64,000 nucleotides of DNA from NCBI GenBank assembly GCA_950295325.1, contig OX485804.1, positions 684,001 to 748,000 of the forward strand, read 5' to 3'. Source of the DNA: Polytrichum commune (taxonomy: Eukaryota; Streptophyta; Polytrichopsida; Polytrichales; Polytrichaceae). Position 1 is the first letter of the stretch. Each line of letters begins with the position of its first letter. Positions 4,414-55,537 of this stretch are shown in pieces. A program made the translations under genes and the position numbers. The notes under the pieces were generated by a model. That model saw only the letters and a list, made by a program, of their open reading frames with translations. It did not search any database and was not told the origin of the DNA.

Positions 4414-7400
4414 ATGGCCATGTTTAGCGCCGTATTTGCGACAAGTGGTGTTGGTGAAACTTCCTCGCCCACTGGAACAGATTACTTCACAACCTCGATC
4501 CAGTCATGTGTGCAAGGTATCGAAGCCCAACTTGTAGGTCATAAATCCCTGCTAAACGGGAGGCAATGTCTGGATCTCTGTACAAAACTTGTCAAGACCG
4601 TCGAGAATGTTCAGAAACTAGTTTCACATTCTCAGGTAGCATTTCGAAGATATGAAACCTTGCGACCAGCCTTGGAGAACTTGCATAGAATCTTGGAGAA
4701 GGCGAGGTTTCTTATCAAGGGGTGCTCTGAAGCAGATTGTAAAGCGTTGATATTTCAGATGCAGAATGAAGAGGCCTTTCGAGAGATTTTGTGTGAGGTA
4801 GGCTTGTGTTACACTGCCATCTACGAGCAAGCCAAAGATATCGTAGGATGGGAATGGAGGAATCTTGGAGTAGAAGATCTCCGTGAGTCGATTTCTACAT
4901 TTGTGCCGGCACTGGAAAGAGAGGTTCTCGAAGATCAACACGCACTGCAGACAATACTTGAGAATCTTGTCAGGAGTCCATCAAATGACACAAAGATTCA
5001 ATGCCTTGCAAAGTACTTGTTAAACAATCTGAAATTCATATGCGAATATAGCGGGGGGAACAGAGTGGCCCGCTCGATGATGTCTAATGCGGTGATGTGG
5101 GTGCCCGAAACAGAAATGCAAGGTACTTGGAAGATCAAAGGCTTCCTTGGAAATGGAGGAGGGGCTAATGGTGTTTTGGACACTGAATGGCTTGGAATCC
5201 CCTGTGCCAAGAAGATTTTCAAAGCTCACAACTCAGAGTATGGTGATTTTTTGGCACTCCAAGGGACTCTTGGCTATTTGGCAAATATCCCAAATTTGTT
5301 TGGCATCCAATCCATGAAGAAGGAGCTTCACAACCAAATGGAGGATTCTACTTTTCGGAAGGAAGTGGCACTCCTGGCACGCCTCAATCATCCGAATGTT
5401 GTCAAGTTCTTCTGTTGTGGTAGTGATTCAGAAGATGAATGTTTCATTGGGATGGAGCTTATGGAGATGGACCTGTCTTCCTTGATTAGAAGGCGTGAAG
5501 GAAAGCTGTTTGCGATTGAAGTGGCACTGGACATCATTTTGCAAATTGCGCGTGGGATGCTCTATCTTCATGACCGAGGGATTGCACATCGAGACCTTAA
5601 ACCTTTGAACGTGGTAATCAGCAAAGTTCCTAACTCTCCACATGTTGTTGAAAATTTCTGTGTGAAGTTGATTGACTTTGGTTTGTCAAAGGCTAAGGTA
5701 CAAGCCTCCATGTCCAGTACAGTGTCAATCCCGAACTGTGGCACCGTAACATATAGAGCTCCAGAGGTGTTTTCCCAGGCACATGAGCACGTTCTGCGTG
5801 GAGGTGAACAGAAGGTGAATTGGTTCAAGGCGGATGTATACAGTTTTGCTTTGACATGCTCAGTGATTCTGTCCTTAAAGAAACCCTTTGAAGGGCGCTA
5901 CCCTGAAGACGGGGAGGAGGGTAAGCGGTACCGGGAGTTAATAAGAGGAACTCGGCCAGAGATTCCCTCAAGCTGCCCTAAAGAGTTGGATGCACTTTTG
6001 AAAGAATGTTGGGAGACAAATCCTGAAAATAGACCCCATTTCTCAACCATTTGCACGAGGCTTGAGAAGTACAAGCATGGTCTTTTAAGAAGGCTATCTA
6101 CTTCTATGTACAAAGGTTTGGAGGAGGTGATATATGATGCAAGAAGTGATTGCAACGCATACATTGAGAGGATCCTTGAGGAGCGTTCTCGACATCGGAG
6201 TTCTATTAAGGATCTTGCCACAAATTCATCTGCAGTTGAAGCTGAGGTAATCATAAAGGCAATCATGATGATACCCTACTATGTGGGTTGTGGAATGCTG
6301 TTGAATGGATTGCAATTGTCCTTAAACCTGCTAACCTGGTGTGGACGGTCGTACAAGTCTGTTGAAGCTGCTGCTCATCTTTCTTCTCTTGAAGCAGAGT
6401 ACTCAAGTCTTAAACTTGATTACTTGTTACTCTGTGTGCAAAGTGTGGAAGATATTGCACAGGTTCAACATGTTGGTCATGAAACTCTGCTAAACGGAAA
6501 GCAATGTCAGCATTTATCTTCGGTGTTTGTTAAATGCGTTGAGAACATTCAGAAACTAGTGACAGATTTTGGAGCATCAAGAGCGGAATGCTTTCGACCA
6601 GGATTGTGGAACTTCTACATAATCTCGGAGAAGTTGAGAAGGCTCGTGAATGAGTGCTGTGAAGCAGATTGGTGTAGAGCAGCCGTTTTCCAGATTCGCA
6701 ATGAAGTGGCCTTTCGAGAGATCTTGGTGGACATAGAATTCTGTTACAATGCGATTTTCGATGAAGCCAAGAGTATGAGTGATCAGGAAGGGAAGACTTC
6801 TGAAGTAGAAGTGCTTCGCCGGTCTTCAACATTTTCCCTCGTATCGAAGGGTGAGATTTTTGAAGATCGTTGTACCCTGAAGAAAAGACTTGAGAACATG
6901 GTGGAAAGTGCCGGCTCTTCAGATGACCATAAGCAATGCCTTGCAAAATACTTGTTGGGCAGATTGGAATTCATATATGAAGAGCATCTTTTAGAAAGCT
7001 TCACAAGTTTAGAGGAATTCGACTTGTGTAATAGTACCTCGGCAGCATATAAGTTGGCAGTTGCATTGCCAATTTTAGAACATGGGTCTAAACTGTGGAG
7101 TAAACTTTCCGATTTTGTTAAATTCATCGGCTATTTAGAAGTGGGAAAACCACACTTTGCAAGTTCCTTGTTGCAGGGATTAAAAGAAGAGCTTGCCACG
7201 CATCTGGATGAAGCAACAATTTGGGTGACTAAGAAGGAACCGCCAGAGACATGGAATTATGGGGATTATGAAGATTCGCCAAGAATATTACATAGAGGTG
7301 ATTTTGGAATTGTAATATCTACCAAATGGCTTGGAATCCCCTGTGGCGAATACTCCCAGACAATGGATAATGAATACAATTTTTGGAAACCTGCAAAAGT

Positions 7401-8088
7401 AATGGCACGTCTGCACCATCCGAATATTATTAAAGTCTTCTGTTGTGGCGAAAAGAAACGAAAAGGGCATTATTTCATTAGGATGGAACTTATGGAGACG
7501 GACTTGTCTGATTGTATCAGAAGTCGCAAAGGGAGGCCATTTCCAATGGTTGTAGCACTTGACATTATTGTGCAAATAGCGCGTGGGATGCGCTATCTGC
7601 ATAGTCAGGGCATTGCACATCGGGATCTCAAGCCAGGAAATGTGTTCATCAGCAGAGCACTTAACACCACAGAGCTTGGCGGCACTTTCTGTGTGAAGGT
7701 CTTTGGTTTTGGGTTTTGCAAGGCAAACGTGGAAGCCTCTAAGGTCGAAGTACCAACAGGCAAGGCCATTAATGGCACCGCCGGTTATCTGGCTCCAGAG
7801 GTCTACGCTAGAAGAGCTTTACCATTGAAACCGTTCAAGGCGGACATTTTCAGCTTCGCGATGACTTCCTCAGATATATTATCCTTCAAACGACCCCGTG
7901 GTTTGGTGGTCTGGAAATTGGGAGACTATGTAGGAGCGATAGATGAGGGTTTGAGGCCCGAGATCGCATCAGGGTGCCCCAAAGAGTTGGTTGCTCTTCT
8001 GAAAGAGTGTTGGGATGCAAACCCCGAGTTACGCCCCGACTTTGATGCCGTTTGTACAAGGTTACAGAAGATTGTTCTGTGTCACTGA
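4414..8088 (+). CDS. HeLo-like/kinase/HeLo-like/pseudokinase fusion protein (plant MLKL-like), 1224 aa
   Basis: One uninterrupted frame from an ATG in good context (GGGGCATGG). Domains in order: HeLo/DUF1221-like helical region about 25-145 (LLNGRQC, PALENLHRILEKA), linker, kinase about 240-555, second HeLo-like region about 665-855 (LLNGKQC), second kinase-like domain about 945-1222. Kinase 1 has a Gly-rich loop (246-254), AKK lysine K267, alpha-C E317, HRD 392-394 with K396 and N399, DFG 421-423 and APE 449-451, so it should be active. The second domain has Tyr at 980 for the lysine, Pro at 993 for the glutamate and GFG at 1098-1100 for DFG, while HRD 1069-1071 remains: a pseudokinase. Kinase 1 also has an insert of about 36 residues between beta-3 and alpha-C. 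Plant MLKLs act at the plasma membrane in immunity, and tandem kinase-pseudokinases confer disease resistance. Such a role here is inference. The HeLo call rests on motif pattern, not a search. Confidence 0.8.
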   Translation: MAMFSAVFATSGVGETSSPTGTDYFTTSIQSCVQGIEAQLVGHKSLLNGRQCLDLCTKLVKTVENVQKLVSHSQVAFRRYETLRPALENLHRILEKARFLIKGCSEADCKALIFQMQNEEAFREILCEVGLCYTAIYEQAKDIVGWEWRNLGVEDLRESISTFVPALEREVLEDQHALQTILENLVRSPSNDTKIQCLAKYLLNNLKFICEYSGGNRVARSMMSNAVMWVPETEMQGTWKIKGFLGNGGGANGVLDTEWLGIPCAKKIFKAHNSEYGDFLALQGTLGYLANIPNLFGIQSMKKELHNQMEDSTFRKEVALLARLNHPNVVKFFCCGSDSEDECFIGMELMEMDLSSLIRRREGKLFAIEVALDIILQIARGMLYLHDRGIAHRDLKPLNVVISKVPNSPHVVENFCVKLIDFGLSKAKVQASMSSTVSIPNCGTVTYRAPEVFSQAHEHVLRGGEQKVNWFKADVYSFALTCSVILSLKKPFEGRYPEDGEEGKRYRELIRGTRPEIPSSCPKELDALLKECWETNPENRPHFSTICTRLEKYKHGLLRRLSTSMYKGLEEVIYDARSDCNAYIERILEERSRHRSSIKDLATNSSAVEAEVIIKAIMMIPYYVGCGMLLNGLQLSLNLLTWCGRSYKSVEAAAHLSSLEAEYSSLKLDYLLLCVQSVEDIAQVQHVGHETLLNGKQCQHLSSVFVKCVENIQKLVTDFGASRAECFRPGLWNFYIISEKLRRLVNECCEADWCRAAVFQIRNEVAFREILVDIEFCYNAIFDEAKSMSDQEGKTSEVEVLRRSSTFSLVSKGEIFEDRCTLKKRLENMVESAGSSDDHKQCLAKYLLGRLEFIYEEHLLESFTSLEEFDLCNSTSAAYKLAVALPILEHGSKLWSKLSDFVKFIGYLEVGKPHFASSLLQGLKEELATHLDEATIWVTKKEPPETWNYGDYEDSPRILHRGDFGIVISTKWLGIPCGEYSQTMDNEYNFWKPAKVMARLHHPNIIKVFCCGEKKRKGHYFIRMELMETDLSDCIRSRKGRPFPMVVALDIIVQIARGMRYLHSQGIAHRDLKPGNVFISRALNTTELGGTFCVKVFGFGFCKANVEASKVEVPTGKAINGTAGYLAPEVYARRALPLKPFKADIFSFAMTSSDILSFKRPRGLVVWKLGDYVGAIDEGLRPEIASGCPKELVALLKECWDANPELRPDFDAVCTRLQKIVLCH

Positions 8089-16424: not shown

Positions 16425-17470
16425 TTTGATGCATGGCTTCTTGCTTGCGGTGGTAGCGTCATCCTCTCACTGTTTTCCCTCTTGCTGCCACGTAGGTGCA
16501 ACTTCGGCAAAGTGACCACGTAATTGATGCAGTTTGCAACTCACAAGGGTTTGGAATTCTAGTCAGCTTCGCTCTACGGCCTCCTGGGAAGGACCGGGTA
16601 TGTACTCTTCCTTCTGCACAATAGTTCCGATCTAATTTAAGTTGCCCACCAGAGCGTCATAGCAGATTATTGGTTTGATGAGGTTACGTTATTGATATGG
16701 TGCTCCAGTTGTTTCTGGAAGGTGGTCCCATAGGATTTAAGAAGACAAGAGGTGGACCCAATCAATGTGCACATTCAACTCCTTATGGTGGTTATGGTAT
16801 AACTGGATTCGATATCAAAATTGACAATGTGTAAGTGGACCATGTAAAGAATCTTCACTATGTTCAAATTGTAGACATGGTTACAGCTTATAGCCACAGT
16901 TTTCTTCTTGCAAAGATTGCAGTTTGGTGTTGAATGACGCTCATAGGTGAAGTGAGCTGTAGCCCCAAGTTGAAGTGCATACAAGTCTACATTCTGAGAG
17001 TTTCAACGTGATTGTGCTGTAGAGTGCTGTGGAGGGGACCCCATCTCTCTCTCCCTCCCCTTAAGTTTCCTGGAAAAATAGGTTGTTTGTGAACTACTAT
17101 GCAAAACCCCACGGATCGGAGCAAGAAGTGTTTGCCGAGGTCGAATGTCCGTGCAGGCCGACTTATTTTAAGGTTTTTGTGGGGATATAAAGTTGTGACC
17201 CCACTTGTTAGGGATTCTTGTAGGGAATAGTGAACAGGTAGAAGGGGACGAGCACGCGTATCGCGAAATTAGACGCTTGCCGGATGGAAAGGCAACCCAA
17301 GGAATCGGCGGGCAGAGAGGGAAGGGGTGCCCTTTGAAGCGCTTCTCTTGTCGACAGGATATCTTCAAAATTCGCGGTGTTAATGGAATAGTGGAACTGA
17401 AGGCTGGAGTTTTATCGCTGTTATTGCCTCTACTTTCTATTCAACGAGTAGGTCTCCATTGGGCCCAAAA
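16425..17470 (+). promoter_or_regulatory. Upstream and leader region of type-B kinase (copy 1)
   Basis: Positions 16425-16960 are recognisably homologous to the block upstream of type-A kinases (3050-3700), including the splice-donor-like GG|GTATGT at 16597/16598. Closer to the gene, GATATAAAG at 17184-17192 is a TATA-like element about 280 bp before the start codon and is kept in the other unit at 34254-34262. Which of the two marks the real transcription start is not decidable from sequence. Confidence 0.45.
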
Positions 17471-19099
17471 ATGTCAACCTGTGGGAGCTGGTTGTTTCAT
17501 GCCATTGAACTTTGTTCCAGTTCTTCTCTTGAACCAGATTACTTGAAACTCTCTCTTGACTGTGTGCAAGATATCAAGAATGTGTTATGTGCTGGTCATG
17601 AATTGCAATTAAACGGGAGGCAGTGTCAGGATCTTGCTTCGAAGCTTGAAATTTTCGTGGAGAAGATGCAAAACCTAGTCTTAAATGTTGAAGCATCAGG
17701 TTTGAGATCCTTTTATCCAGCTTTGAGGAACATGTACAGAGTCTCGGAGAAAGCGAAGTTGCTTGTCAATGACTGCTGCAAAGAAGATTGGTGTAGAGAA
17801 TGCATGTTTCAGATCCAGAATGAAGAAGCATTTGGAGAGATTTTGCGGGAGATAGGGTTATGCGACGAGCAAGCTAAAGCTATAACAATGCTTGGCCAAT
17901 TGAAAGAGCAGAATCGAGTCAAAGATCTCGGTCTGCCTTCAACAATTTCACCCGCATCGGAGACAAATGACCTGGTTCTAGAAGATCGACGTACATTGAA
18001 GGAGAGACTTCAAGACATGGTCAAAAGCAGCACCTCATCAGATAAGCACCTTGTGAGATTCATGTTGAGAAAACTTGAAGTTTGCTCTGCAGAGCAAAGG
18101 ATTGAGAATTTGGACCCATCTGATCCAATAAGTTTGGGTACCATTTCAGATCTGCAAGATACACAGGACAATGCATTGTTGGGCAAACAGGAACTGGCGT
18201 CTAGAGTGCAAAGAATTGAGAATGTGGGCCTGTCTGATGCAATAGATTTGGGTTCAGATTCAGAATTGCAACATGCATGGGAGAATTCCAACTTAAAAGT
18301 GATTGGAAAGGGAGCACATGGAGCTGTTTTGTCCATCAAATGGCATGGCATCCCCTGCGCCAAGAAGGTATTTGAAGTGAAGGCCAGTGAAATTTTTCAG
18401 GGGGAAGCAGCTGTGCTGAGACGCCTCAACCACCCGAACATTGCCAAGTTCTTCTTTTGTGGCACTGAAAACCAGCACTGTTTCATTGCGATGGAGCTAA
18501 TGCATATGAGTCTGCATGAATAGATCAAGGAACGTAAAGGAAGGCCATTTTCGACTGATGTAGCAATAAACATCATTTTGCAAATCGCGAATGCAATGTA
18601 CTATCTACATAAACAGGGGATTGCACATCGTGACCTCAAATCACTTAACGTGGTGATCAACAAAGTGTCAACCACTCCACACCCTGGTGACAAATTTCAG
18701 GTGAAGTTGGTTGATTTTGGGTTGTCAAAGACAAAGGTGGAAGCTTCCAGGTCCAACTCAGTGTCTATAGAGAATTGTGGCACCACAGCATATAGAGCAC
18801 CAGAGGTGTTTTCCAAGGGAGATGATCCTGGAAAGGTGGTTTGGTTCAAGGCGGATGTATATAGTTTTTCTTTGATCTGCTCAGCAATTTTGTCCTTGAA
18901 GGAGCCCTTTGAAGGTGTAGACACGAAGACCTTGTTTGACGAGCTGTGCAAGGGTCTGAGGCCACGTCTCCCACAAGATTGCCCCAAAGAGTTGGCTGCA
19001 CTCGTGGAAGAATGTTGGAATGCAGAACCTAAGTTACGACCCAGTTTTCTAGCCATTCGCACAAGGCTGGAGAAACTTGTTTTCCCGAGTGAGAATTGA
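17471..19099 (+). pseudogene. Type-B HeLo-like kinase, broken by a nonsense codon
   Basis: The frame starts at ATG 17471 (MSTCGSWLFHAI) and aligns throughout with the intact type-B protein at 34540-36189. It stops at TAG 18521-18523, where the intact copy has TTG (Leu) in SLHKLIQERKGRPF. The frame then continues open to 19099 with HRDLKSLN, DFGLSK and YRAPEVF all present. The stop cuts the kinase between the hinge and the catalytic loop, leaving HeLo-like region, linker and N-lobe (350 residues). It could be a recent pseudogene or a truncated HeLo-linker protein. The rest of the sequence has hardly decayed, so the loss looks young. The linker carries two related segments each starting QRIEN. 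Confidence 0.8.
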
Positions 19100-21806
19100 T
19101 CCTATGTGCAACCAGACTAATTACTCCTAACTGCAAATGCTCCAGAGAAGACAACAGTAGTCGAGGTAACCATCATTGATTAATTTCCTTATTATGTTTG
19201 TTTTCCCACTAGGTCAATTCCATGTAAAAATGGTTGGATTGGTTCAAAGTTAGATATTTATTATCAGTGATACGTTGTGCTCTGCCAAACCTTCTGTTGG
19301 TTATTGTTAACTCAGTGAATGCTACCTTAATGTTTGTTGATTAATACAATATTTACATTTCACAATCGTCCAATGTAATGAGATTAAATCATACCTTGAT
19401 TATTTGCACCTAGTACTTAGGGCCACTTTACACTATGGCCAAGTGTCATGACCATGAAATTGTGAGGGACCGGGGTCCTTGAAACTCATTTGAAGGCCGT
19501 ACCATGGAAACTGAAACTGGATTTGGTGTGGTCACGGGCCTTCAAGTGTAATGTAAAGACATAGTATGCGACTGGGCTATCCACCGTACGTCATTCCATT
19601 ACCATCTTTTTCATGTAGGCCCTTCTACACAATGAGGTATAATAGATCAAGAGTTGCAAGATCTTGAATAGTCATGGTCTTCCGGAACTGTGGTTTGAGG
19701 TAGGCTTCACGCAAAAGTCGGTAGATCATGTAAAATTATCCTGTTAATGCCATGTAGGCTTCCAATGTAGGTTCAATCATTCAAACTCCCTTGGCCCCTT
19801 AGGCCCTCGAGCTTTAGTAGTAATGTGCGCAGGCTCATACAAACAGTAAAGAACTGCAGAAAATAATCTAGACTTGGATATGAGTGGGTGGCCTTCCTAA
19901 ACATAAATTGCTCATACAAGGAGATGTTCACCTCTACTTGTTTGGCTCGTACTTTCCCCACTATTTGTTTAAGCTTACAAAGCTTACGAGGGATATGGAG
20001 GAGATGTTTCGATGGAATTAGAATTTGGATCAGATTCTCCACTTGTAATTTTGGTCTGAAGAATTTATACTGAAACAAAACCACCAGCCCTTGAGACAAG
20101 AAAACTTTACGAAGACTTCTCACCTGCACATTCAGAAAACATAGATGTATTAGGCCCGGCAGGTTTTTCACAATTCCGTATGTGCAACAATTTCCGAGCA
20201 TCAAGGCAATCTACTTTGTAACGGTTCCAAGAGATTATCCCACAATCAGTTCAACCTGCGTTGGTGATAGATCCTTGATGATATATTCTTGCAAACCAAT
20301 TGAGCACCTTGCAGTCTTACCTGCTAATTTGTAGGGAGGTTCAAAAGAATGCAAGTTTGCCGAAAGTATGGCAAACTAAGCTCTAGAGAACATGAAATTG
20401 CTTATATGTGGAAGGGTTGCGACACACAACTTGCAAGTTTGATGGCCCAAGGTAAATGAATTTGGACCCTTACATGCGCATAAAATGGTGGAGCTCAGGT
20501 TCCTTCTTTTTTGGAGTGATTTGAGACCATGAAACATGAATACTCTACAAGTTTGAGTTCAAAACATGACCTTGAATACCAATCAAAACAAAAGCAAGGA
20601 CCAATCTTGAGACAAAGCTCCACCACAAAAGACACATGTAAGGATGCATAATCATTTACCAAGGCCCACCAAATTTGCAAGCTTGAGCTTGTGCTCAAAG
20701 TTTGTGCATGGCAAGGTTATTAACAATTAATTGGTCAAGTACATAAGTTCCACTTCACCATTTGTTGCCTTCCATCCTCTCATGTTGTAGAAACAAACAC
20801 TTGTTAGACAACCTCCACACCAACCGCCACAATGAAGAAATACATGCACTAGCTAAGAACCTATCGGTGCATCCCACCACAAGTTGCTTCACACTCATAA
20901 GTGTTGGCAAATTCAAAAATTATGCACCTAGTGTTTCAAAAGTGGCATTTGGATACATTTATGTGAGTCCACTAGGATTGATTTGCAGCTGATGACATGA
21001 CAAATGATGCATGCACCTGTTGGCAGGGATGGAGGTTTCATGTTGTCAATCTCAAACCACATCCTCGGGCTTATCCTTTGCCCCTCGCCTGCCTTACTTT
21101 CCCACTCCTTTGCATGTAATGGACGCCTCACATGACTCGATTCTAACACCTTCTAATGCCTCATATTAGTTAGTGGTAGGGGGCCCCACCTTTCCATATT
21201 AGTTCTCCAGTTTGCACACATAAGTAGTGTGACAATTTGTTTTCCTCTATGTACACGTTGTTGTAGTAGCATGTATACTTTGGTTTTATGATTGCAAGAT
21301 GTCAATGTTGTAAGGTAGTATGGGATGTGTAGATGTTAAGGTGCGAGTAAAGGTAAAGGGTGTTGTGTATCCTTATGTTGGTCCTTTGTATGGTGAAGTT
21401 TGTAAGATTACATTTGATAGAAAATATTTTGTTTCTAGAAAAACATTTGCATAGACGTGTGGACTCTGCAACATTGGTCTTCACAACACCCAAAAGGCTA
21501 TTCATATAGGTCTTCATTGCACCAAAATAAAGGTCACAACTTTGTTTAGCCCTCTTATAAACAAACATGGCTATATGTATACTCACTCAAAGGACGAGGA
21601 GCTCATTGCTAGAGTGGAAAGAAATAAATGATTACACACCAAAAGTCAGGTGGAAAAGGTTGGGATGGCACAACCCCATACTACTTGCCATACATGTGAT
21701 GGCCAAGCATTTTACCTAGGTTAGTGTTTTGTGACATGGCATCTAAAATAGGTATAAGATATACGTACATGTTTACTAACTTGGAAGGGGGGGCTTAAGG
21801 TGGGAT
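19100..21806. other. 3' flank and long spacer after type-B kinase (unit 1)
   Basis: No supported gene. A minus-strand frame of 143 codons at 19773-20204 is split by a frameshift in the unit 2 counterpart (36842-37272), so it is not kept as protein. Relative to unit 2, about 210 bp has been deleted near 20775, with CCTC at the junction. Confidence 0.45.
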
Positions 21807-26053: not shown

Positions 26054-28675
26054 ATGGCCATGGCTAGCGCCGTATTTGCGACAAGTGGTGTTGGTGAAAC
26101 TTCCTCGCCCACTGGAACAGATTACTTCACAACCTCGATCCAGTCATGTGTGCAAGGTATCGAGGCCCAACTTGTAGGTCATAAATCCCTGCTAAACGGG
26201 AGGCAATGTCTGGATCTCTGTACAAAACTTGTCAAGACCGTCGAGAATGTTGAGAAACTAGTTTTACATTGTCAGGTAGCATCTGGAAGAAATGAAACCT
26301 TGCGACCAGCCTTGGAGAACTTGCATAGAATCTTGGAGAAGGCGGGGTTTCTTATCAATGGGTGCTCTGAAGCAGATTGTGAAGCGTTGATATTTCAGAC
26401 GCAGAATGAAGAGGCCTTTCGAGAGATTTTGTGTGAGGTAGGCTTGTTTTACAATGCCTTCTACGAGCAAGCCAAACATATGGTACAATCGGAAGGGAGG
26501 ATTCTTGGAGTAGAAGATCTCCGTGAGTCGAGGTCTACATTTGTGCCGGCACTGGAAAGAGAGGTTCTCAAAGATCAACACACACTGCAGACAATACTTG
26601 AATATCTTGTCAGGAGTCCATCAAATGACACAAAGATTCAATGCCTTGCAAAGTACTTGTTGGACAATCTGAAATTCATATGCGAATATCGCGGGGGGAA
26701 CAGAGTGGCCCGCTCGATGATGTCTAATGCGGTGACGTGGGTGACCGAAACAGAAACGCAAGGTACTTGGAAGATCAAAGGCTTCGTTGGAAATGGAGCA
26801 GGGGCTAAAGGTGTTTTGGACGCTGAATGGCTTGGAATCCCCTGTGCCAAGAAGATTTTCAAAGCTCACAACTCAGAGTATGCCGATTTTTTGGCACTCC
26901 AAGGGACTCTTGGCTATTTGGCAAATATCCCAAATTTGTTTGGCATCCAATCTATAAAGAAGGAGCCTCACAACCAATTGCAGGATTGTACTTTTCGGAA
27001 GGAAGTGGCACTGCTGGCACGCCTCAATCATCCGAATGTTGTCAAGTTCTTCTGTTGTGGTAGTAATTCAAAAGGTGAACGTTTCATTGGGATGGAGCTT
27101 ATGGAGACGAACCTGTCTTCCTTGATTACAAGGCGTGAAGGAAAGCCGTTTGCGATTGAAGTGGCACTGGACATCATTCTGCAAATTGCGCGTGGAATGG
27201 TCTATCTTCATGATCGAGGGATTGCACATCGAGACCTTAAACCTTCGAACGTGGGAATCAACAAAGTTCCTAACTCTCCACATGTTGTTGAAAATTTCTG
27301 TGCGAAGTTAATTGACTTTGGTTTGTCAAAGGCTAAGGTTCAAGCCTCCATGTCCAGTACAGTATCAATCCCGAACTGTGGCACCGTAACATATAGAGCT
27401 CCAGAGGTGTTTTCCAAGGCACATGAGCACGTTCTGCGCGGAGGTGAACAGAAGGTGAATTGGTTCAAGGCGGATGTATACAGTTTTGCTTTGACATGCT
27501 CAGTGATTCTGTCCTTGAAGAAACCCTTTGGAGAGCGTGACCCTTTGAAAGATGGGGAGCAGGATGAGTGGTACCTGGAGTTAATAAATGGAACTCGGCC
27601 AGAGATTCCCTCAAGCTGCCCTAAAGAGTTGGATGCACTTTTGAAAGAATGTTGGGAGACAAATCCTGAAAGAAGACCCCATTTCTCAGCCATTTGCATG
27701 AAGCTTGAGAAGTACAAGCATGGTCTTTTAAGAAGCGTATCTACTTCTATGGATGAAGGTTTGGAGGAGGTGAAATATGATGCAACAAGTGATTGCAATG
27801 CATGCATTGAGAGGATCCTTGGGGAGCGTTCTCGACATCGGAGTTCTATTAAGGATCTTGCCACAAATTCATCTGCAGTCGAAGCTGAGGTAATCATAAA
27901 GGCATTCATGATGATACCCTACTATGTGGGTCGTGGAATCCTGTTGAATGGATGGCAATTGTCCTCAAAGCTGCCAAGCTGGTTTAGAGGGTGGTACAAA
28001 TCTGTTGGAGCTGCTGCTCATCTTTCTTCTCTTGAAGCAGAGTACTCAAGTCTTAAACTTGATTACTTGTTACTCTCCGTGCAATGTGCGGAAGATATTG
28101 CACAGGTTCAACGTGTTGGTCACGAAACTCTGCTAAACGGAAAGCAGTGTCAGCATTTATCTTCGGTGTTTGTTAAATGCGTTGAGAACATTCAGAAACT
28201 AGTGACAGATTTTGGAGCATCAAGAGCGGAATCCTTTCGACGAGGATTGTGGAACTTCTACATAATCTCGGAGAAGTTGAGAAGGCTCGTGAATGAGTGC
28301 CGTGAAGCAGATTGGTGTAGAGCAGCCGTTTCCCAGATTGGCAATGAAGTGGCCTTTCGAGAGATCTTGGTGGACATAGAATTGTGTTACAATGCGATTT
28401 TCGAAGAAGCCAAGAGTATGAGTGATCAGGAAGGGAAGGCTTCTGAAGAAGAAGTGCTTCGCCGGTCTTCAACATTTTCCCTCGTATCGGAGGGTGAGAT
28501 TTTCGAAGATCGTTGTACCCTGAAGAAGAGACTCGAGAAAATGGTGGAAAGTGCCGGCTCTTCAGATGAGGATAAGCAATGCCTTGCGAGATTGGGATTC
28601 ATATATGAAGAGCATCATTTAGCATCAAAAAAGGAACTGGAGGAGTTGGAAAATAGAACACTATTATGGATCTGA
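26054..28675 (+). CDS. HeLo-like/kinase/HeLo-like protein, pseudokinase domain lost (873 aa)
   Basis: Closely related to residues 1-850 of the 4414-8088 protein: HeLo-like region about 25-145, kinase about 240-555 with GIPCAKK lysine, HRDLKPSN, DFGLSK and YRAPEVF all intact, and second HeLo-like region about 665-850. It then ends in a novel tail (KKELEELENRTLLWI) instead of the pseudokinase. From about 28654 the DNA matches unit 1 position 9231, which is non-coding there. A deletion has therefore removed the pseudokinase and about 1.1 kb of flank, and the reading frame closes on a TGA from former spacer. The frame is otherwise intact over 2.6 kb, so it is probably expressed. The ATG matches the one at 4414. 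Confidence 0.75.
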   Translation: MAMASAVFATSGVGETSSPTGTDYFTTSIQSCVQGIEAQLVGHKSLLNGRQCLDLCTKLVKTVENVEKLVLHCQVASGRNETLRPALENLHRILEKAGFLINGCSEADCEALIFQTQNEEAFREILCEVGLFYNAFYEQAKHMVQSEGRILGVEDLRESRSTFVPALEREVLKDQHTLQTILEYLVRSPSNDTKIQCLAKYLLDNLKFICEYRGGNRVARSMMSNAVTWVTETETQGTWKIKGFVGNGAGAKGVLDAEWLGIPCAKKIFKAHNSEYADFLALQGTLGYLANIPNLFGIQSIKKEPHNQLQDCTFRKEVALLARLNHPNVVKFFCCGSNSKGERFIGMELMETNLSSLITRREGKPFAIEVALDIILQIARGMVYLHDRGIAHRDLKPSNVGINKVPNSPHVVENFCAKLIDFGLSKAKVQASMSSTVSIPNCGTVTYRAPEVFSKAHEHVLRGGEQKVNWFKADVYSFALTCSVILSLKKPFGERDPLKDGEQDEWYLELINGTRPEIPSSCPKELDALLKECWETNPERRPHFSAICMKLEKYKHGLLRSVSTSMDEGLEEVKYDATSDCNACIERILGERSRHRSSIKDLATNSSAVEAEVIIKAFMMIPYYVGRGILLNGWQLSSKLPSWFRGWYKSVGAAAHLSSLEAEYSSLKLDYLLLSVQCAEDIAQVQRVGHETLLNGKQCQHLSSVFVKCVENIQKLVTDFGASRAESFRRGLWNFYIISEKLRRLVNECREADWCRAAVSQIGNEVAFREILVDIELCYNAIFEEAKSMSDQEGKASEEEVLRRSSTFSLVSEGEIFEDRCTLKKRLEKMVESAGSSDEDKQCLARLGFIYEEHHLASKKELEELENRTLLWI

Positions 28676-30329
28676 ATAAATTTATGAAGAACTTTCTAAA
28701 ATCGGAGACGAATTAAATTTTCTTTCAGAGTGATCACTAAAAAAATAAAATGTACACTTATTGTAAATAGTATTGATGAGAGTGTTCAATATGAATGACT
28801 AAAATCAAATCTGTGTCAACAGAGTGATGGGAAGTCGGAAGCATTAGAATAGGATCCACGTCATAAGTTTCCGGCATTATGTTTATTTTGCATAAAATGG
28901 TTACCCTGTACCGTTCAGTACAACTAAATCTCCTGCAAACCATCTCATCAACTGCCGTGCTTTAGATGTTGCTAAAGAGATTCACTATTAAAAAATCACG
29001 CGGTATTTGCCACTGACTGTTTATGGTACTCAGTGTCACAAACTATTCGACGTTACACCATGCTATAACTTCTTACTTAAAATGCAACTCTGACCAAGTG
29101 AAGACGTTTAAGTCCTCTAATGTCTAAAAATGAATATATTTGATCTTTTCTTATAGAAACGAATATCCATACAAACTATGTATAACACTGTAATTACAAA
29201 TAGTAAGTGACACTAAATATCATGAACGATGTAAGGGTTGAGCATTTACCTTGGGGACCAACCCACAAGTGTTACTTAAGACACTTGTTCGTGGTTATAA
29301 CTAATTCAAATGTGAAGGTTGAAGGTTTATTGGTAGATCCAAGGTAAGTGTGCACAAATTGGTGGGTTACTACTAACAGGGAAGCCGAGTTGAGGTTGAT
29401 GAATGTTATTTTTTTATTGTTTACATCCAAAGGTTTGTCAACTTGATAGAGTTCTTCTTTTAGTTAGACTTGTGACAATGAGAAGAGAAATTCGAGACAT
29501 ATGATGGTTTTGTGACACATATGATGTGCTATGAATATGTATATCACGTTTTATATTATTCCTTGGGGAATAGTATAACTGGTAAGTATGGTCAAGATGT
29601 CAAACTTGGCAGCCAAATAACTTACATGTTAGTGTGATTAACTTATGAACAAGTTGGCAATTGTAGTGATGGTTTAACAACTGATGTTCTTTTGGTATTG
29701 TTTCATCCAACTAATTATGTAACCATAATAGTTTATGTAAACAATCCATTATGATTTAGCAATGTGATTTGTTACTTTATATTGTTTAAAATTGTTCTAA
29801 ATGTCAAATATGAGGAAAACAAGGTTTTGGTGATGGCTTCACATTCCATGCTTAAATCATGCTTACAAATTTTATGATGGTCATAGATTTGTGTTTTTAC
29901 CCCCCCCCCCCCCCATTCAAGAGAATTACCAATCATTTTAGAGGATTTTAGAGAATATTTTATGGTCTAATAAAGAAAAGTCAAAAGATGTCAACATGAA
30001 ATTGCTTGCAACACGTCCAAATGGTTGGACTTGGAAACACTAGGATCTCGACCAATCTTGCCAAAAATCTCTCCAACATTGCATAAATACGTACATTGAT
30101 ATTGGAATTTGATCATTTTTTTTTATCTTATTAGAGATTAAAAATGAATACTTGCATTTGTGCGCACCAATTGCCATGCAAATGTTTTTGAGTAAGAATC
30201 ACATGACACATCACTCAAAAAAATTGCACATCACATGACACCCGTTACAAACAAACATTTTGCCTACTAAAACGGAGGAGAATCAAGTAATAATCACATA
30301 ATTAGGATGATCCACTTCAAGTTCTATGT
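28676..30329. other. 3' flank of second type-A gene and spacer
   Basis: Begins as the counterpart of 9257-9415, then from about 29275 matches unit 1 from about 12300. A run of 15 C residues lies at 29900-29914. No gene is supported. A 61-codon minus frame at 28758-28943 is identical in the other arm, but that only reflects the recent duplication. Confidence 0.45.
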
Positions 30330-31040
30330 TCTAGTGAAGGATATTTTAATTTAGGTTTCATGTGCACCAATGTCATCTATGAGCAAGCAGCAAGCCAAAC
30401 ATATTATATTGCAATTTGAAGAGAGGATTCTTGGAGCAAGAGATTTTCGTGAGACAGGTACACCAAATATGATATTTAGTGTTTGATTATATTTAATTTT
30501 GTTACCACTCTACCCTGCTCAACACTGCTTTTCAATTCCTTGATAATTAGTGTGAGAAGATATGCTAGAAGATATGTTCGAATTCTCCTTTTATCAATGT
30601 TATTTTTTTTTCTTTCATATCCTTACTAACACTAAATTCAAACATGTAACTTCCACATATTACCATAGTTGATATTTAGTATTTGAGTTTACATTTAATG
30701 TTACTTACTTTCATAGGGTTATTGACATTTAGTGTATGCATTTGTGTTTAGTATGTCTAACACTAAATATCATGTTTAGTGTAGTTCTACATCTTTGCCT
30801 GCATAATTTGGGAAGCGAGGTTCTCAAAGGTCAACAAACACTTCAAAAAATACTCCACAAACATGCAGTGAACAACAACCCAACCATTGTAGCCGATACA
30901 ATGATCAAATGCCTTGCAAATTACTAGTCATGGACAATATGAAATTCACATGTGCAAGTGGGAGGACTGAATGGGGCTCCTTGGGCATGTCTAATATATT
31001 GATGTGGGTGTTGGAAATGTAAGGAATTTTCCTTTGGCAA
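30330..31040 (+). pseudogene. Decayed type-A kinase fragment (unit 2 copy)
   Basis: Sister of 13345-14030. After the MITE it reads SEVLKGQQTLQKILHKHAV then IKCLANY, which aligns with the linker REVLEDQHTLQTILE...IQCLAKY of intact type-A proteins. Stops occur immediately after LANY, and the start is missing. Interrupted by the MITE at 30459-30782. Confidence 0.65.
30459..30782. mobile_element. MITE, family M2 (unit 2 copy)
   Basis: Counterpart of 13473-13780, with the right end CACTAAATATCATGTTTAGT keeping the inverted repeat. It is slightly longer (about 324 bp). Present in the same place in both units, so it predates the duplication. Confidence 0.6.
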
Positions 31041-33489: not shown

Positions 33490-34539
33490 ATGATTTTGAT
33501 GCAATGGCTTCTTGCTTGCGGTGGTAGCGTCATCCTCTCACTGTTTTCTCTCTTGCTGCCACGTAGGTGAAACGTCGGCAAAGTGACCACGTAATTGATG
33601 CAGTTTGCAACTCACAAGGGTTTGGAATTCTAGTCAGCTTCGCTCTACGGCCTCCTGGGAAGGACCGGGTATGTACTCTTCCTTCTGCACAATAGTTCCG
33701 ATCTAATTTAAGTTGCCCACCAGAGCGTCATAGCAGATTATTGGTTTGATGAGGTTACGTTATTGATATGGTGCTCCAGTTGTTTCTGGAAGGTGGTCCC
33801 ATAGGAGTCAAGAAGACAAGAGGTGGACCCAATCAATATGCACATTCAACTCCTTATGGTGGTTATGGTATAACTGGATTCGATATCAATTTGACGATGT
33901 GTAAGCGGACCATGTAAAGAATCTTCACTATGTTCAAATTGTAGACATGGTTACAGCTTATAGCCACAGTTTTCTTCTTGCAAAGATTGCAGTTTGGTGT
34001 TGAATGACGCTCATAGGTGAAGTGAGCTGTAGCCCCAAGTTGAAGTGCATACAAGTCTACATTCTGAGAGTTTCAACGTGATTGTGCTGTAGAGTGCTGT
34101 GGAGGGGACCCCATCTCTCTCTCCCTCCCCTTAAGTTTCCTGGAAAAACAGGTTGTTTGTGAACTACTATGCAAAACCCTACGGATCGGAGCAAGAAGTG
34201 TTTGCCGAGGTCGAATGTCCGTGCAGGCCGACTTATTTTAAGGTTTTTGTGGGGATATAAAGTTGTGACCCCACTTGTTAGGGATTCTTGTAGGGAATAG
34301 TGAACAGGTAGAAGGGGACGAGCACGCGTATCGCGAAATCAGACGCTTGCCGGATGGAAAGGCAACCCAAGGAATCGGCGGGCGGAGAGGGAAGGGGTGC
34401 CCTTTGGAGCGCTTCTCTTGTCGACAGGATATCTTCAAAATTGCGGTGTTTATGGAATAGTGGAACTGAAGGCTGGAGTTTTATCGCTGTTATTGCCTCG
34501 ACTTTTTATTCAACGAGCAGGTCTCCCTTGGGCCCAAAA
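33490..34539 (+). promoter_or_regulatory. Upstream and leader region of type-B kinase (copy 2)
   Basis: Counterpart of 16425-17470. TATA-like GATATAAAG lies at 34254-34262. The splice-donor-like ACCGG|GTATGT is at 33667/33668. A CTCTTGTCGACAG at about 34417-34429 resembles a 3' splice site before the coding region. Together these suggest a spliced 5' UTR, without proof. Confidence 0.45.
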
Positions 34540-36189
34540 ATGTCAACCTGGGAGAGGTGGTTGTTTCATGCCATTGGACTTTGTTCCGGTTCTTCTCTTG
34601 AACCAGATTACTTGAAACTCTCTCTTGACTGTGTGCAAGATATCAAGAATATGTTACGTGCTGGTCATGAATTGCTATTAAACGGGAGGCAGTGTAAGGA
34701 TCTTGCTTCGAAGCTTGAAATTTTCGTGGAGAAGATGCAAAACCTAATCTTAAATGTTGAAGCATCAGATTTGACATCCTTTTATCCAGCTTTGAGGAAC
34801 ATGTACAGAGTCTCGGAGAAAGCGAAGTTGCTTGTCAATGACTGTTCCAAAGAGGATTGGTGTAGAGAATGCATGTTTCAGATCCAGAATGAAGAAGCAT
34901 TTGGAGAGATTTTGCGGGAGATAGGGTTATGCGACGAGCAAGCTAAAGCTATAACAATGCTTGGCCAATTGAAAGAGCAGAATCGAGTCAAAGATCTCGG
35001 TCTGCCTTCAACAATTTCACCCGCATCGGAGACAAATGACCTGGTTCTAGAAGATCGACATACATTGAAGGAGAGGCTTCTAGACATGGCCAGAAGCAGC
35101 ACCTCATCAGATAAGCACCTTGTGAGATTCATGTTGAGAAAACTTGAAGTTTGCTCTGCAGAGCAAAGGATTGAGAATTTGGACCCATCTGATCCAATAA
35201 GTTTGGGTACCATTTCAGAAGTGCAAGATACACAGGACAATGCATTGTTGGCCAGACAGGAACTGGCGTCTAATGTGCAAAGAATTGAGAATGTGGGCGT
35301 GTCTGATGCAATAGATTTTGGTTCAGATTCAGAATTACAACATGGATGGGAGAATGACGAATTAGACAAGATTGGAAGCGGAGCACATGGAGCTGTTTTG
35401 TCCATCAAATGGCATGGCATCCCCTGCGCCAAGAAGGTATTTGATGTGAACACCATTCACGTTTTTCAGAGGGAAGCAGCTGTGCTGAGATGCCTCAACC
35501 ACCCAAATATTGCCAAGTTCTTCTTTTGTGGCACTGAAAAGCGGCACTGTTTCATTGCGATGGAGCTAATGCATATGAGTCTGCATAAATTGATCCAGGA
35601 ACGTAAAGGAAGGCCATTTTCGACTGATGTAGCAATAAACATCATTTTGCAAATTGCAAATGGGATGTGCTATCTACATAGCCAGAAGATTGCACATCGT
35701 GACCTCAAAACACTCAACGTGGTGATCAACAAAGTGTCAACCACTCCACACTGTGGTGACAAATTTCAGGTGAAGTTGGTTGATTTTGGGTTGTCAAAGA
35801 CAAAGGTGGAAGCTTCCAGGTCCAACCCAGTGTCTATAAGAAATTGTGGCACCACAGCATATAGAGCACCAGAGGCATTTTCCAAGGGAGATGATCCTGG
35901 AAAGGTGGTTTGGTTCAAGGCGGATGTATATAGTTTTTCTTTGATCTGCTCAGCAATTTTGTCCTTGAAGGAGCCCTTCGAAGGCGTGGCCAGGAAGACC
36001 TTGTTTGACGAGCTGTGCAAGGGTCTGAGGCCACGTCTCCCACAAGATTGCCCCAAAGAGTTGGCTGCACTCGTGGAAGAATGTTGGAATGCAGAACCTA
36101 AGTTACGACCCAGTTTTCTAGCCATTCGCACAAGGCTGGAGAAACTTGTTTTCTCGAGTGAGAATAGATCCTATGTGCAACCAGACTAA
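34540..36189 (+). CDS. Type-B HeLo-like kinase, intact (549 aa from the ATG at 34540)
   Basis: Start chosen at ATG 34540 (MSTWERWLFHAI), the position matched by the sister gene; the frame is open for 62 more codons upstream, but those are leader. HeLo/DUF1221-like region about 20-140 (LLNGRQC 46-52, PALRNMYRVSEKA 83-95), linker 140-270 with two repeats starting QRIEN (209, 247), and kinase 275-535. Catalytic residues are all present: glycine loop GSGAHGAV 279-286, K299, alpha-C E312, HRD 386-388, DFG 415-417, APE 443-445. Only 12 residues separate K299 and E312, without the insert seen in type A. Plant MLKL-like by pattern. Any membrane or cell-death role is inference. It is the only intact type-B gene in the window. 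Confidence 0.8.
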   Translation: MSTWERWLFHAIGLCSGSSLEPDYLKLSLDCVQDIKNMLRAGHELLLNGRQCKDLASKLEIFVEKMQNLILNVEASDLTSFYPALRNMYRVSEKAKLLVNDCSKEDWCRECMFQIQNEEAFGEILREIGLCDEQAKAITMLGQLKEQNRVKDLGLPSTISPASETNDLVLEDRHTLKERLLDMARSSTSSDKHLVRFMLRKLEVCSAEQRIENLDPSDPISLGTISEVQDTQDNALLARQELASNVQRIENVGVSDAIDFGSDSELQHGWENDELDKIGSGAHGAVLSIKWHGIPCAKKVFDVNTIHVFQREAAVLRCLNHPNIAKFFFCGTEKRHCFIAMELMHMSLHKLIQERKGRPFSTDVAINIILQIANGMCYLHSQKIAHRDLKTLNVVINKVSTTPHCGDKFQVKLVDFGLSKTKVEASRSNPVSIRNCGTTAYRAPEAFSKGDDPGKVVWFKADVYSFSLICSAILSLKEPFEGVARKTLFDELCKGLRPRLPQDCPKELAALVEECWNAEPKLRPSFLAIRTRLEKLVFSSENRSYVQPD

Positions 36190-47240: not shown

Positions 47241-47244
47241 AGAA

Positions 47245-47760
47245 GTATTTTTTGAAGTGTTTGTTGACCTTTGAGAACCTCGCTTCCCAAATTATGCAGG
47301 CAAAGATGTAGAACTACACTAAACATGATATTTAGTGTTAGACATACTAAACACAAATGCATACACTAAATGTCAATAACCCTATGAAAGTAAGTAACAT
47401 TAAATGTAAACTCAAATACTAAATATCAACTATGGTAATATGTGGAAGTTACATGTTTGAATTTAGTGTTAGTAAGGATATGAAAGAAAAAAAAATAACA
47501 TTGATAAAAGGAGAATTCGAACATATCTTCTAGCATATCTTCTCACACTAATTATCAAGGAATTGAAAAGCAGTGTTGAGCAGGGTAGAGTGGTAACAAA
47601 ATTAAATATAATCAAACACTAAATATCATATTTGGTGTACCTGTCTCACGAAAATCTCTTGCTCCAAGAATCCTCTCTTCAAATTGCAATATAATATGTT
47701 TGGCTTGCTGCTTGCTCATAGATGACATTGGTGCACATGAAACCTAAATTAAAATATCCT
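47245..47760 (-). pseudogene. Partial type-A kinase relic (inverted copy)
   Basis: Reverse complement of part of 30330-31040, cut at the duplication breakpoint within the linker-coding portion (SEVLKGQQTLQKIL). Interrupted by the MITE at 47315-47639. Confidence 0.6.
47315..47639. mobile_element. MITE, family M2 (inverted copy)
   Basis: Reverse complement of 30459-30782, same ends and length. Moved with the inverted duplication, not by transposition. Confidence 0.6.
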
Positions 47761-53361: not shown

Positions 53362-55277
53362 CAAGGTACTTGGGAGATCAAAGGCTTCGTTGGAAATGGA
53401 TCAGGGGCTAAAGGTGTTTTGGACAGTGAATGGCTTGGAATCCCCTGTGCCAAGAAGATGTTCGAAGCTCTCAACTCAGAGAATGCCGATGTCCAAGGGA
53501 CTCTTCGCTATTTGGTAACCGCATGGATCCCAAATTTGTTTGGCATCCAATCTATAAAGAAGGAGCTTCACAACCAATTGCAGGATTGTACTTTTCGGAA
53601 GGAAGTGGCACTGCTGGCACGCCTCAATCATCCGAATGTTGTCAAGTTCTTCTGTTGTGGTAGTAATTCAAAAGGTGAACGTTTCATTGGGATGGAGCTT
53701 ATGGAGACGAACCTGTCTTCCTTGATTACAAGGCGTGAAGGAAAGCCGTTTGCGATTGAAGTGGCACTGGACATCATTCTGCAAATTGCGCGTGGGATGG
53801 TCTATCTTCATGATCGAGGGATTGCACATCGAGACCTTAAACCTTCGAACGTGGGAATCAACAAAGTTCCTAACTCTCCACATCTTGTTGAAAATTTCTG
53901 TGCGAAGTTAATTGACTTTGGTTTGTCAAAGGCTAAGGTTCAAGCCTCCATGTCCAGTACAGTATCAATCCCGAACTGTGGCACCGTAACATATAGAGCT
54001 CCAGAGGTGTTTTCCAAGGCACATGAGCACGTTCTGCGCGGAGGTGAACAGAAGGTGAATTGGTTCAAGGCGGATGTATACAGTTTTGCTTTGACATGCT
54101 CAGGGATTCTGTCCTTGAAGAAACCCTTTGAAGGTCGCGACCCTTTGAGAAACGTGGATGAGGATGAGCGGTACCTGGAGTTAATAAATGGTACTCGGCC
54201 AGAGATTCCCTCAAGCTGCCCTAAAGAGTTGGATGCACTTTTGAAAGAATGTTGGGAGACAAATCCTGAAAGAAGACCCCATTTCCCAACCATTTGCACG
54301 AGGCTTGAGAAGTGCAAGCATGGTCTTTTAAGAAGCGCATCTACTTCTATGGATGAAGGTTTGGAGGGGGTGAAAAACGATGCAACAAGTGATTGCAACG
54401 CATGCATTGAGAGGATCCTTGAGGAGCGTTCTCGACATCGGAGTTCTATTAAGGATCTTGCCACAAATTCATCTGCTGTCGAAGCTGAGGTAATCATAAA
54501 GGCAACCATGATGATACCCTACTATGTGGGTCGTGGAACCCTGTTGAAGGGATGGCAATTGTCCTCCAGCCTGCCAAGCTGGATTAGACGGTGGTACAAA
54601 TCCGTTGGAGCTGCTGCTCATCTTTCTTCTCTTGAAGCAGAGTCCTCAAGTTTTGAACTTGATTACTTGTTACTCTCCGTGCAATGTGCGGAAGATATTG
54701 CACAGGTTCAACGTGTTAGTCACAAAACTCTGCTAAACGGAAAGCAATGTCAGCATTTATCTTCGGTGTTTGTTAAATGCGTTGAGAACATTCAGAAACT
54801 AGTGACAGATTTTGGAGCATCAAGAGCGGAATGCTTTCGACGAGGATTGTGGAACTTCTACATAATCTCGGAGAAGTTGAGAAGGCTCGTGAATGAGTGC
54901 CGTGAAACAGATTGGTGTAGAGCAGCCGTTTCCCAGATTGGCAATGAAGTGGCCTTTCGAGAGATCTTGGTGGACATAGAATTGTGTTACAATGCGATTT
55001 TCGACGAAGCCAAGAGTATGAGTGATCAGGAAGGGAAGGCTTCTGAAGTAGATGTGCTTCGCCGGTCTTCAACATTTTCCCTCGTATCGGAGGGTGAGAT
55101 TTTTGAAGATCGTTGTACCCTGAAGAAGAGACTCGAGAACATGATGGAAAGTGCCGGCTTTTCAGATGAGCATAAGCAATGCCTTGCAAGATACTTGTTG
55201 GGCAGATTGGGATTCATATATGAAGAGCGTCATTTAGAAATATTTGCATCTATAAAGCAACTTGAGGACTTGGTTAA
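53362..55277 (+). pseudogene. Type-A kinase truncated at both ends
   Basis: The kinase frame begins at CAA 53362 (QGTWEIKGFVGNGSG) directly after an in-frame TGA. The HeLo-like region 1 and the start codon are missing. It then runs open through the kinase (GIPCAKK, HRDLKPSN, DFGLSK, YRAPEVF) and second HeLo-like region to 55277, where the pogo-like copy 2 inserts. The frame ends nine codons later in the transposon terminal repeat, at TAA 55306-55308. It would lack promoter, start and pseudokinase. Translation from a downstream ATG would give a kinase without its first beta strands. No internal stops, so loss is recent. Forms the right arm of a palindrome with the 49423-52041 gene. Confidence 0.8.
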
Positions 55278-55537
55278 TACCCTACTTCAACGGCAGGTTC
55301 GGCCATAATTAATTGATTTTGCTAGTGCCTAATAATTATTTTTCAGCAACCCAAAAATGCCTAAAATGTTGGAAAATCTATCATAAAAGTGCCAAATTTT
55401 TGTAAAACAAATTTCATTATAAACTGAAAAATACATATGTGATTTCCGTAGAAATAAAAAAACAACACTAATATGCAAACTTAATGTGATAAAATCACAT
55501 TTAACCTATTTGGTATATAATAAGTAATATCGTACTT

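Follow-up and report, generated by a model that had tools for sequence, protein, structure and literature searches.

A predicted tandem MLKL-type kinase-pseudokinase gene in an expanded HeLo-kinase family of the moss Polytrichum commune

What could a plant gene do that joins two kinases, each preceded by its own helical bundle, in one uninterrupted chain? Such a gene lies at 4414..8088 of the window, a 64,000-nucleotide stretch of the Polytrichum commune genome (GenBank assembly GCA_950295325.1, contig OX485804.1, positions 684,001 to 748,000, forward strand). An original prediction, made from the sequence of the window, described it as HeLo-like bundle, kinase, HeLo-like bundle and pseudokinase in one frame, and this layout is borne out: there is a single 1224-codon open reading frame, and both halves of its product, as modelled, superpose on the plant MLKL AtMLKL3. 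We conclude from these models that the 1224-residue chain consists of two plant-MLKL-type units (bundle, brace and kinase), the first with an active-looking kinase and the second with a pseudokinase. The gene belongs to an expanded, clustered, immune-type family of HeLo-kinase genes. By analogy with known systems, we suggest, at about even odds (probability near 0.5), that it encodes a tandem MLKL-type kinase-pseudokinase immune protein, in which the pseudokinase would be the sensor and the HeLo bundles the executioner. The gene, here called a double, is composed as follows.

4414..8088, + strand: double gene, HeLo-like bundle, brace and kinase followed by HeLo-like bundle, brace and pseudokinase; ATG-started frame of 1224 amino acids
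4477..5118, + strand: H1, first helical bundle and brace (residues 22-235), from the helices of the full-chain model; superposes on AtMLKL3 and AtMLKL2
5119..6093, + strand: K1, first kinase, catalytic residues intact (K267, E317, HRD at 392, DFG), as in 5/5 doubles
6094..6393, + strand: linker containing a 19-residue hydrophobic stretch (mean hydropathy 1.53-1.85 across the five copies)
6394..7248, + strand: H2, second helical bundle and brace (residues 661-945), from the unit 2 model
7249..8085, + strand: K2, pseudokinase (residues 946-1224), with Pro993 for the alpha-C Glu, Tyr980 for the VAIK Lys (window copy only) and GFG for DFG
7684..7824, + strand: K2 activation segment (residues 1091-1137), hypervariable between copies

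Layout and predicted fold

A Pfam scan of the 1224-residue frame recovered the two kinase stretches, and neither bundle of this protein had a Pfam match above the cut-off. Across 18 bundle sequences of the wider family, MLKL_N matched eight (best 2.1e-4), RPW8 five (best 3.7e-5) and DUF1221 three (best 0.024). A profile search for the bundle, as had been proposed, therefore succeeds for part of the family but not for H2 of the window copy, which matches none of these three. Searched against PDB sequences, a profile of the family bundles placed the AtMLKL2 chain 6lba first, with an E-value of 0.12 that is suggestive at most. The best PDB sequence matches of K1 are the plant MLKL chains 6lba and 6ka4; among the listed PDB matches whose best stretch falls in K2, RIPK1 comes first.

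Predicted structures carry the likeness much further. For the unit 2 model (mean predicted local distance difference test score, pLDDT, 75.5), Foldseek ranked AtMLKL3 (6ka4_A) first, and the two superpose from the bundle through the kinase (Z 25.5, root-mean-square deviation (rmsd) 3.5, 439 residues); the other 49 of the 50 structural matches listed span the kinase part alone. Unit 1, taken from a full-chain model that starts at residue 18 (pLDDT 65.4, predicted template modelling score, pTM, 0.50), superposes on AtMLKL3 6ka4_A with Z 28.7 (rmsd 3.1, 459 residues) and on AtMLKL2 6lba_A with Z 25.8 (406 residues). AtMLKL3 is thus the best whole-unit structural match of both halves among the matches listed, and no animal MLKL structure appears among the 50 listed per comparison. 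In the models of both units, brace helices lie between the bundle and the kinase fold that follows. The helical-bundle similarity to plant MLKLs, on which the original prediction had staked itself, is therefore present, and since both units superpose on a plant MLKL from bundle to kinase, we predict that each half forms a complete plant-MLKL-type unit.

The hydrophobic stretch of the linker was considered as a membrane helix. Its hydropathy is no higher than that of a helix inside K1 (1.69-2.06), and we make no such claim; by eye, the stretch resembles the C-terminal tail of the doubles on contig C1 described below.

Copies, catalytic residues and selection

We searched the genome (407.8 Mb in 64 contigs) for relatives and scored the best 38 of 717 candidates, so that all counts are lower bounds. 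Contig C2, which holds the window, carries at least five intact doubles of 1224-1229 amino acids (at 442, 508, 535, 645 and 688 kb, the last being the window copy), and the other four are 86-88% identical to the window copy. With at least five intact copies of nearly equal length, the double layout is not a product of chance. The same cluster includes at least two doubles cut after H2 (710 and 733 kb), at least one partial double (737 kb) and, between the doubles, at least eight single-unit relatives (413, 499, 524, 549, 635, 677, 702 and 719 kb), such that singles and doubles mostly alternate; the single at 635 kb has no bundle match listed, and that at 702 kb contains one TAG. At least two further doubles lie on contig C1 (10.90 and 11.03 Mb; L031 and L032), with both kinases active-looking and a hydrophobic C-terminal tail. 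Contig C3 holds an isolated K2-like frame (L014) that matches from residue 887.

The two kinases of the C2 doubles differ sharply in their catalytic residues. K1 retains the Gly-loop, Lys, Glu, HRD and DFG in all five. The residues originally read from the window copy are confirmed, both in K1 (K267, E317, HRD and DFG) and in K2 (Tyr980, Pro993, HRD and GFG at 1098-1100), but those of K2 are not equally typical of the family. Across the six second-type kinases (five C2 doubles and the C3 copy), replacement of the alpha-C Glu by Pro (Pro993) and an altered Gly-loop are universal, whereas Tyr980 occurs in the window copy alone, the VAIK Lys being kept in the other four doubles and the C3 copy (5/6). 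The DFG triplet reads GFG, GFV, GFV, DFR, NFL and GFG, and so is intact in none of the six, with no replacement fixed. K2 keeps HRD and APE. The pairing of an active-looking kinase with a pseudokinase, as in tandem kinase-pseudokinases, is accordingly found in the five C2 doubles; the two C1 doubles look active in both kinases. The start of the K2 N-lobe (7231-7392) has only 71% DNA identity between the window copy and the copy at 645 kb, with a 15-nucleotide insertion. An origin of Tyr980 in a compensated frameshift is not supported despite this low identity, as the gaps in the nucleotide alignment are all multiples of 3.

The reading frame has been kept by selection. The window copy differs from each of the four other doubles at 230-251 nucleotides; placed at random, these differences would be expected to create 9.1-10.2 stops per comparison, with 0 of 300 placements stop-free, and no stop is observed. 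Comparisons of the other four copies with each other would be expected to yield 2.0-4.7 stops, and 1 to 38 of 300 placements are stop-free. These five copies were picked as intact, and three of the eight listed C2 copies are not.

Amino-acid change is concentrated in the activation segment of K2. Site models (M2a against M1a) were run with custom code rather than PAML, and their results do not include the C6_H and C6_K sets or K2 with the C3 copy. Twice the log-likelihood gain (2dlnL) was 52.5 for K2, against 7.5 for K1 (p 0.024), 3.3 for H1, 2.1 for H2 and 0.04 for the linker, and the sites identified in K2 are 1097, 1100, 1120, 1123 and 1135. The K2 value was 49.3 with a slightly different column set, 53.7 without the window copy and 53.7-85.7 across all three topologies; when double and triple hits were allowed it was 17.4 (p 1.7e-4) or 19.8 (p 5e-5), and that of K1 was 4.4. 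A comparison of four copies shows amino-acid differences at 19 of 45 codons in the K2 activation segment and silent differences alone at one, compared with 91 and 32 of 1176 codons in the rest of the gene (Fisher test on the density of variable codons, 1e-9). The equivalent segment of K1 is conserved (3 of 45 codons variable). Thus, the pattern of change across the family is like that of immune genes; inside the doubles, the signal sits in K2.

Several observations weigh against a sensor role for K2 and against the wider immune reading. The nonsynonymous-to-silent contrast between the activation segment and the rest of the gene is modest (p 0.045 with four copies, 0.14 with five), and the K2 signal falls to 1.8 once codons with multi-nucleotide differences are dropped, a treatment that removes the variable sites themselves. 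Diversification is also seen elsewhere: among C2 singles, 2dlnL is 21.6 for the bundle (21.5 with multi-hits, matching K2 under that model) and 14.4 for the kinase (5.8 with multi-hits), and among relatives on contig C5 it is 12.2 for the bundle, with no signal in the kinase (4.0), so that K2 is not the sole diversifying part of the family. Ratios of nonsynonymous to synonymous change (dN/dS) are near 1 in C2 and C1 genes (mostly 0.75-1.2 per domain), as relaxed constraint would also give; they are lower in relatives on C5 (0.62-0.86) and C6 (0.26-0.44). The three C2 copies that are truncated or broken (3/8 listed) all lack K2, and K2 may therefore be dispensable. Per-domain trees of the copies conflict, suggesting exchange between them. 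Finally, the confidence of the models given above (75.5 for unit 2; 65.4 and pTM 0.50 for the full chain) leaves the mutual arrangement of the units not fixed.

Many of these points would be expected if the doubles were a weakly constrained by-product of fusion, in which neighbours were joined by deletion in a recombining cluster, K2 is decaying, and its diversification reflects multi-nucleotide mutation and exchange. The dN/dS near 1, the three copies without K2, the loss of the K2 signal when multi-hit codons are removed, and the transposons and identical repeats in the window all fit such a history. However, it accounts poorly for the absence of stops from five copies where about nine to ten are expected per window-copy comparison, for a K2 signal that persists under the multi-hit model and across three topologies, and for change focused on one segment of a domain that retains HRD and APE. 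We therefore consider this history unlikely.

The order of the units invites another interpretation, in which the chain would be an internal analogue of RIPK3 and MLKL: K1 would phosphorylate K2 in the same molecule or oligomer and so release H2, making the protein an executor triggered from upstream rather than a sensor. An active-looking unit is indeed followed by a HeLo-pseudokinase unit, RIPK1 heads the listed PDB matches that are best in K2, and 5/5 doubles have a Thr following Pro (1115) in the activation segment of K2. In human MLKL, the phosphorylation switch sits in the activation segment. In K2 that segment is the least conserved part, though, and the likeness to RIPK1 may merely reflect a tyrosine kinase-like (TKL) type of kinase, so that an executor of this kind seems to us improbable.

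Proposed mechanism and relation to known systems

If the protein is a tandem MLKL-type kinase-pseudokinase immune protein, analogy with tandem kinases and MLKLs would assign the roles of sensor, switch and executor to K2, K1 and the bundles. The activation face of K2 would bind, or be modified by, pathogen molecules, acting as sensor or decoy. Its engagement could alter contacts between the units and free or activate K1, and phosphorylation of brace or bundle might then release the HeLo bundles. Once released, these would oligomerise and disturb membranes or channel ions, leading to local cell death, either alone or with a helper nucleotide-binding leucine-rich-repeat receptor (NLR). The original prediction that sensing and executing parts are combined in one chain is to this extent supported, by the concentration of amino-acid change in the K2 activation segment; the functions themselves are assigned by inference.

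Each unit resembles plant MLKLs (AtMLKL2, 6lba; AtMLKL3, 6ka4; wheat Pm13) in its HeLo/DUF1221 bundle, brace and kinase fold, and K1 resembles Pm13, by one account of that protein, in retaining its catalytic residues (PMC10951266). Described plant MLKLs are single-unit proteins, whereas five C2 genes and two C1 genes encode two bundles and two kinases per chain, and the sequence similarity of the bundles of the doubles is weak. By their PDB titles, AtMLKL2 and AtMLKL3 form tetramers.

With tandem kinase-pseudokinases such as RPG1, WTK1/Yr15 and WTK6-vWA, the C2 doubles share two kinases per chain, one predicted active and one a pseudokinase. Published accounts hold that some of these proteins also arose by duplication (PMC6170490), propose that the second kinase is a decoy (PMC10260399), and report that several wheat tandem kinases interact with effectors and that some require an NLR (PMC12830362). 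Their kinases are mostly of the receptor-like type (175 of 184 domains in the survey of PMC6170490), whereas here each kinase has its own MLKL-type bundle and brace. The likeness to the animal RIPK3-MLKL pair, as that pair is summarized in PMC8816944, would be one of an active kinase working with a HeLo-pseudokinase; it would be a functional parallel and not membership, as two proteins there correspond to one fused chain here.

The double gene thus unites tandem kinase-pseudokinase sensors and MLKL-type executors, which have been described apart, and does so outside cereals and Arabidopsis. As had been supposed, no such double HeLo-kinase is described in the titles and abstract openings of the papers listed by our literature searches, although a plant-wide survey of tandem kinases (Reveguk 2025) may already include some. 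Because variation between the copies is densest in the K2 activation segment, exchanging this 47-residue segment among natural copies offers a test of the idea that a pseudokinase in a tandem kinase serves as effector bait.

Kinase-NLR relatives, origin and neighbourhood

The HeLo-kinase unit is not confined to singles and doubles. Relatives of the C6 clade have an NB-ARC match on the same strand, some 0.3-0.6 kb downstream, in 8/8 cases; the NB-ARC survey covered the best 126 of 466 candidates, which are also the sole basis for judging NB-ARC near C5 singles. At L033, a kinase frame is followed by an NB-ARC frame and then by a 508-residue leucine-rich-repeat (LRR) frame, and L034 (around the kinase at C6:24260562) matches both the NB-ARC and the LRR of L033, so that the LRR is seen at two loci. 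At L033 and L034, a whole bundle-brace-kinase unit, more than a kinase, stands ahead of the NB-ARC. These genes resemble the PNL (Pkn-NLR) class of kinase-NLRs, which Xue et al. described from Physcomitrella and regarded as moss-specific, in that kinase frame, gap and NB-ARC frame recall the intron they describe between kinase and nucleotide-binding site (PMC3352924). By themselves, such genes point to a moss as the probable source of the genome, although Chia et al. place kinase-NLRs in monocots too. Chia et al. also report mild ion leakage from tested N-terminal kinases, with a modest, variable response for a moss one (PMC11218826). The 'kinase' of the kinase-NLRs in this genome is a complete MLKL-type unit with its own helical bundle, and the HeLo-kinase unit of the doubles corresponds to the N-terminus of these genes. 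The doubles differ in having two units with no NB-ARC or LRR following the kinase: queries from L033 found no match to either in the window or at the C1 loci L031 and L032.

This correspondence raises the possibility that the double is a headless immune adaptor: a receptor of PNL type whose NB-ARC-LRR part was lost or never present, and which partners, regulates or acts as a decoy for the HeLo-kinase-NB-ARC-LRR receptors of the genome by way of its bundles or kinases. The shared N-terminal unit speaks for it, as does the reported cooperation of some wheat tandem kinases with an NLR (PMC12830362). We regard it as very unlikely given the long branches between the PNL clade and the doubles and a window in which no NB-ARC or LRR match of PNL type occurs.

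Two kinases of PNL type (L024 and L026, on C6) have HMD in place of HRD, from which kinase loss may also have occurred in this NLR class.

To place the units relative to each other, we used a main tree of 36 units, built without the fragments L008, L019, L029 and L030 and without three members from the window, namely the second truncated double, the partial double and the TAG-bearing single; clade groups were named only after the first tree was seen. Units 1 and 2 of the C1 doubles are sisters in every tree, with bootstrap and Shimodaira-Hasegawa-like approximate likelihood-ratio test (SH-aLRT) values of 99/97 in the 36-unit tree and SH-aLRT/bootstrap values of 98.9/99 for the whole unit, 90.5/89 for the bundle and 87.6/97 for the kinase. 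That the C1 and C2 doubles go back to one shared doubling is disfavoured by borderline tests: p 0.041 and 0.019 when the halves are tested separately and, under a joint constraint that left out C3K2, C6s24236, C6s24396, C6s24422 and W_trunc710, p 0.055 for the whole unit, 0.11 for the bundle and 0.028 for the kinase. Two separate doublings, in C1 and C2, are thus favoured by these trees but not proven, and gene conversion could have made the two halves of the C1 doubles look like sisters.

For C2, the original prediction of an internally duplicated MLKL-like unit holds in that two such units are present, but the trees do not join them as sisters. Constraining them to be sisters is not rejected (p 0.32), nor is grouping unit 2 (p 0.40) or unit 1 (p 0.27) with the singles. 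There is a weak lean of unit 2 towards the singles (85.9/67 for the whole unit, 74.4/81 for the bundle, absent from the kinase tree), and fusion of neighbours appears as likely an origin of the C2 double as internal duplication. The most far-reaching form of our proposal would be a self-contained necroptosis-like receptor, with sensor pseudokinase, activating kinase and two executing bundles, that arose at least twice from the unit heading kinase-NLRs and whose K2 diversification is driven by pathogens; taken as a whole, we hold this to be doubtful.

Besides the double gene, the window contains five other members of the family.

17375..19117, + strand: single-unit HeLo-kinase relative with one in-frame TAG
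26054..28675, + strand: truncated double (H1-K1-H2), 873 amino acids, without K2
34354..36189, + strand: single-unit HeLo-kinase relative, intact, 611 amino acids
49423..52041, - strand: truncated double, 872 amino acids, without K2, sharing a 3928-nucleotide, 100% identical inverted repeat with 26054..28675
53362..55308, + strand: partial double (K1 to H2), with one in-frame TGA reported

In all three incomplete doubles (26054, 49423 and 53362) the match ends at residue 870-874, and the K2-like frame on C3 begins at 887; there is thus a breakpoint directly ahead of the pseudokinase module. The inverted repeat (26927-30854 and 47244-51171, 3928 nucleotides, 100% identical) covers much of the two truncated doubles and represents either a recent inverted duplication or an assembly effect. 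Elsewhere in the cluster, L008:1-960 (C2:634000) is an LRR array that shares 58% identity with the LRR of PNL type, and it adjoins a single kinase without a bundle match. Identical 613-residue transposase frames occur three times in the window, at 41525-43366 (+), 55538-57379 (-) and 61685-63526 (+), within stretches of 3.18 kb that are 100% identical; the one scanned carries a DDE_1 domain, and one such stretch starts at the end of the third incomplete double. This element looks recently active.

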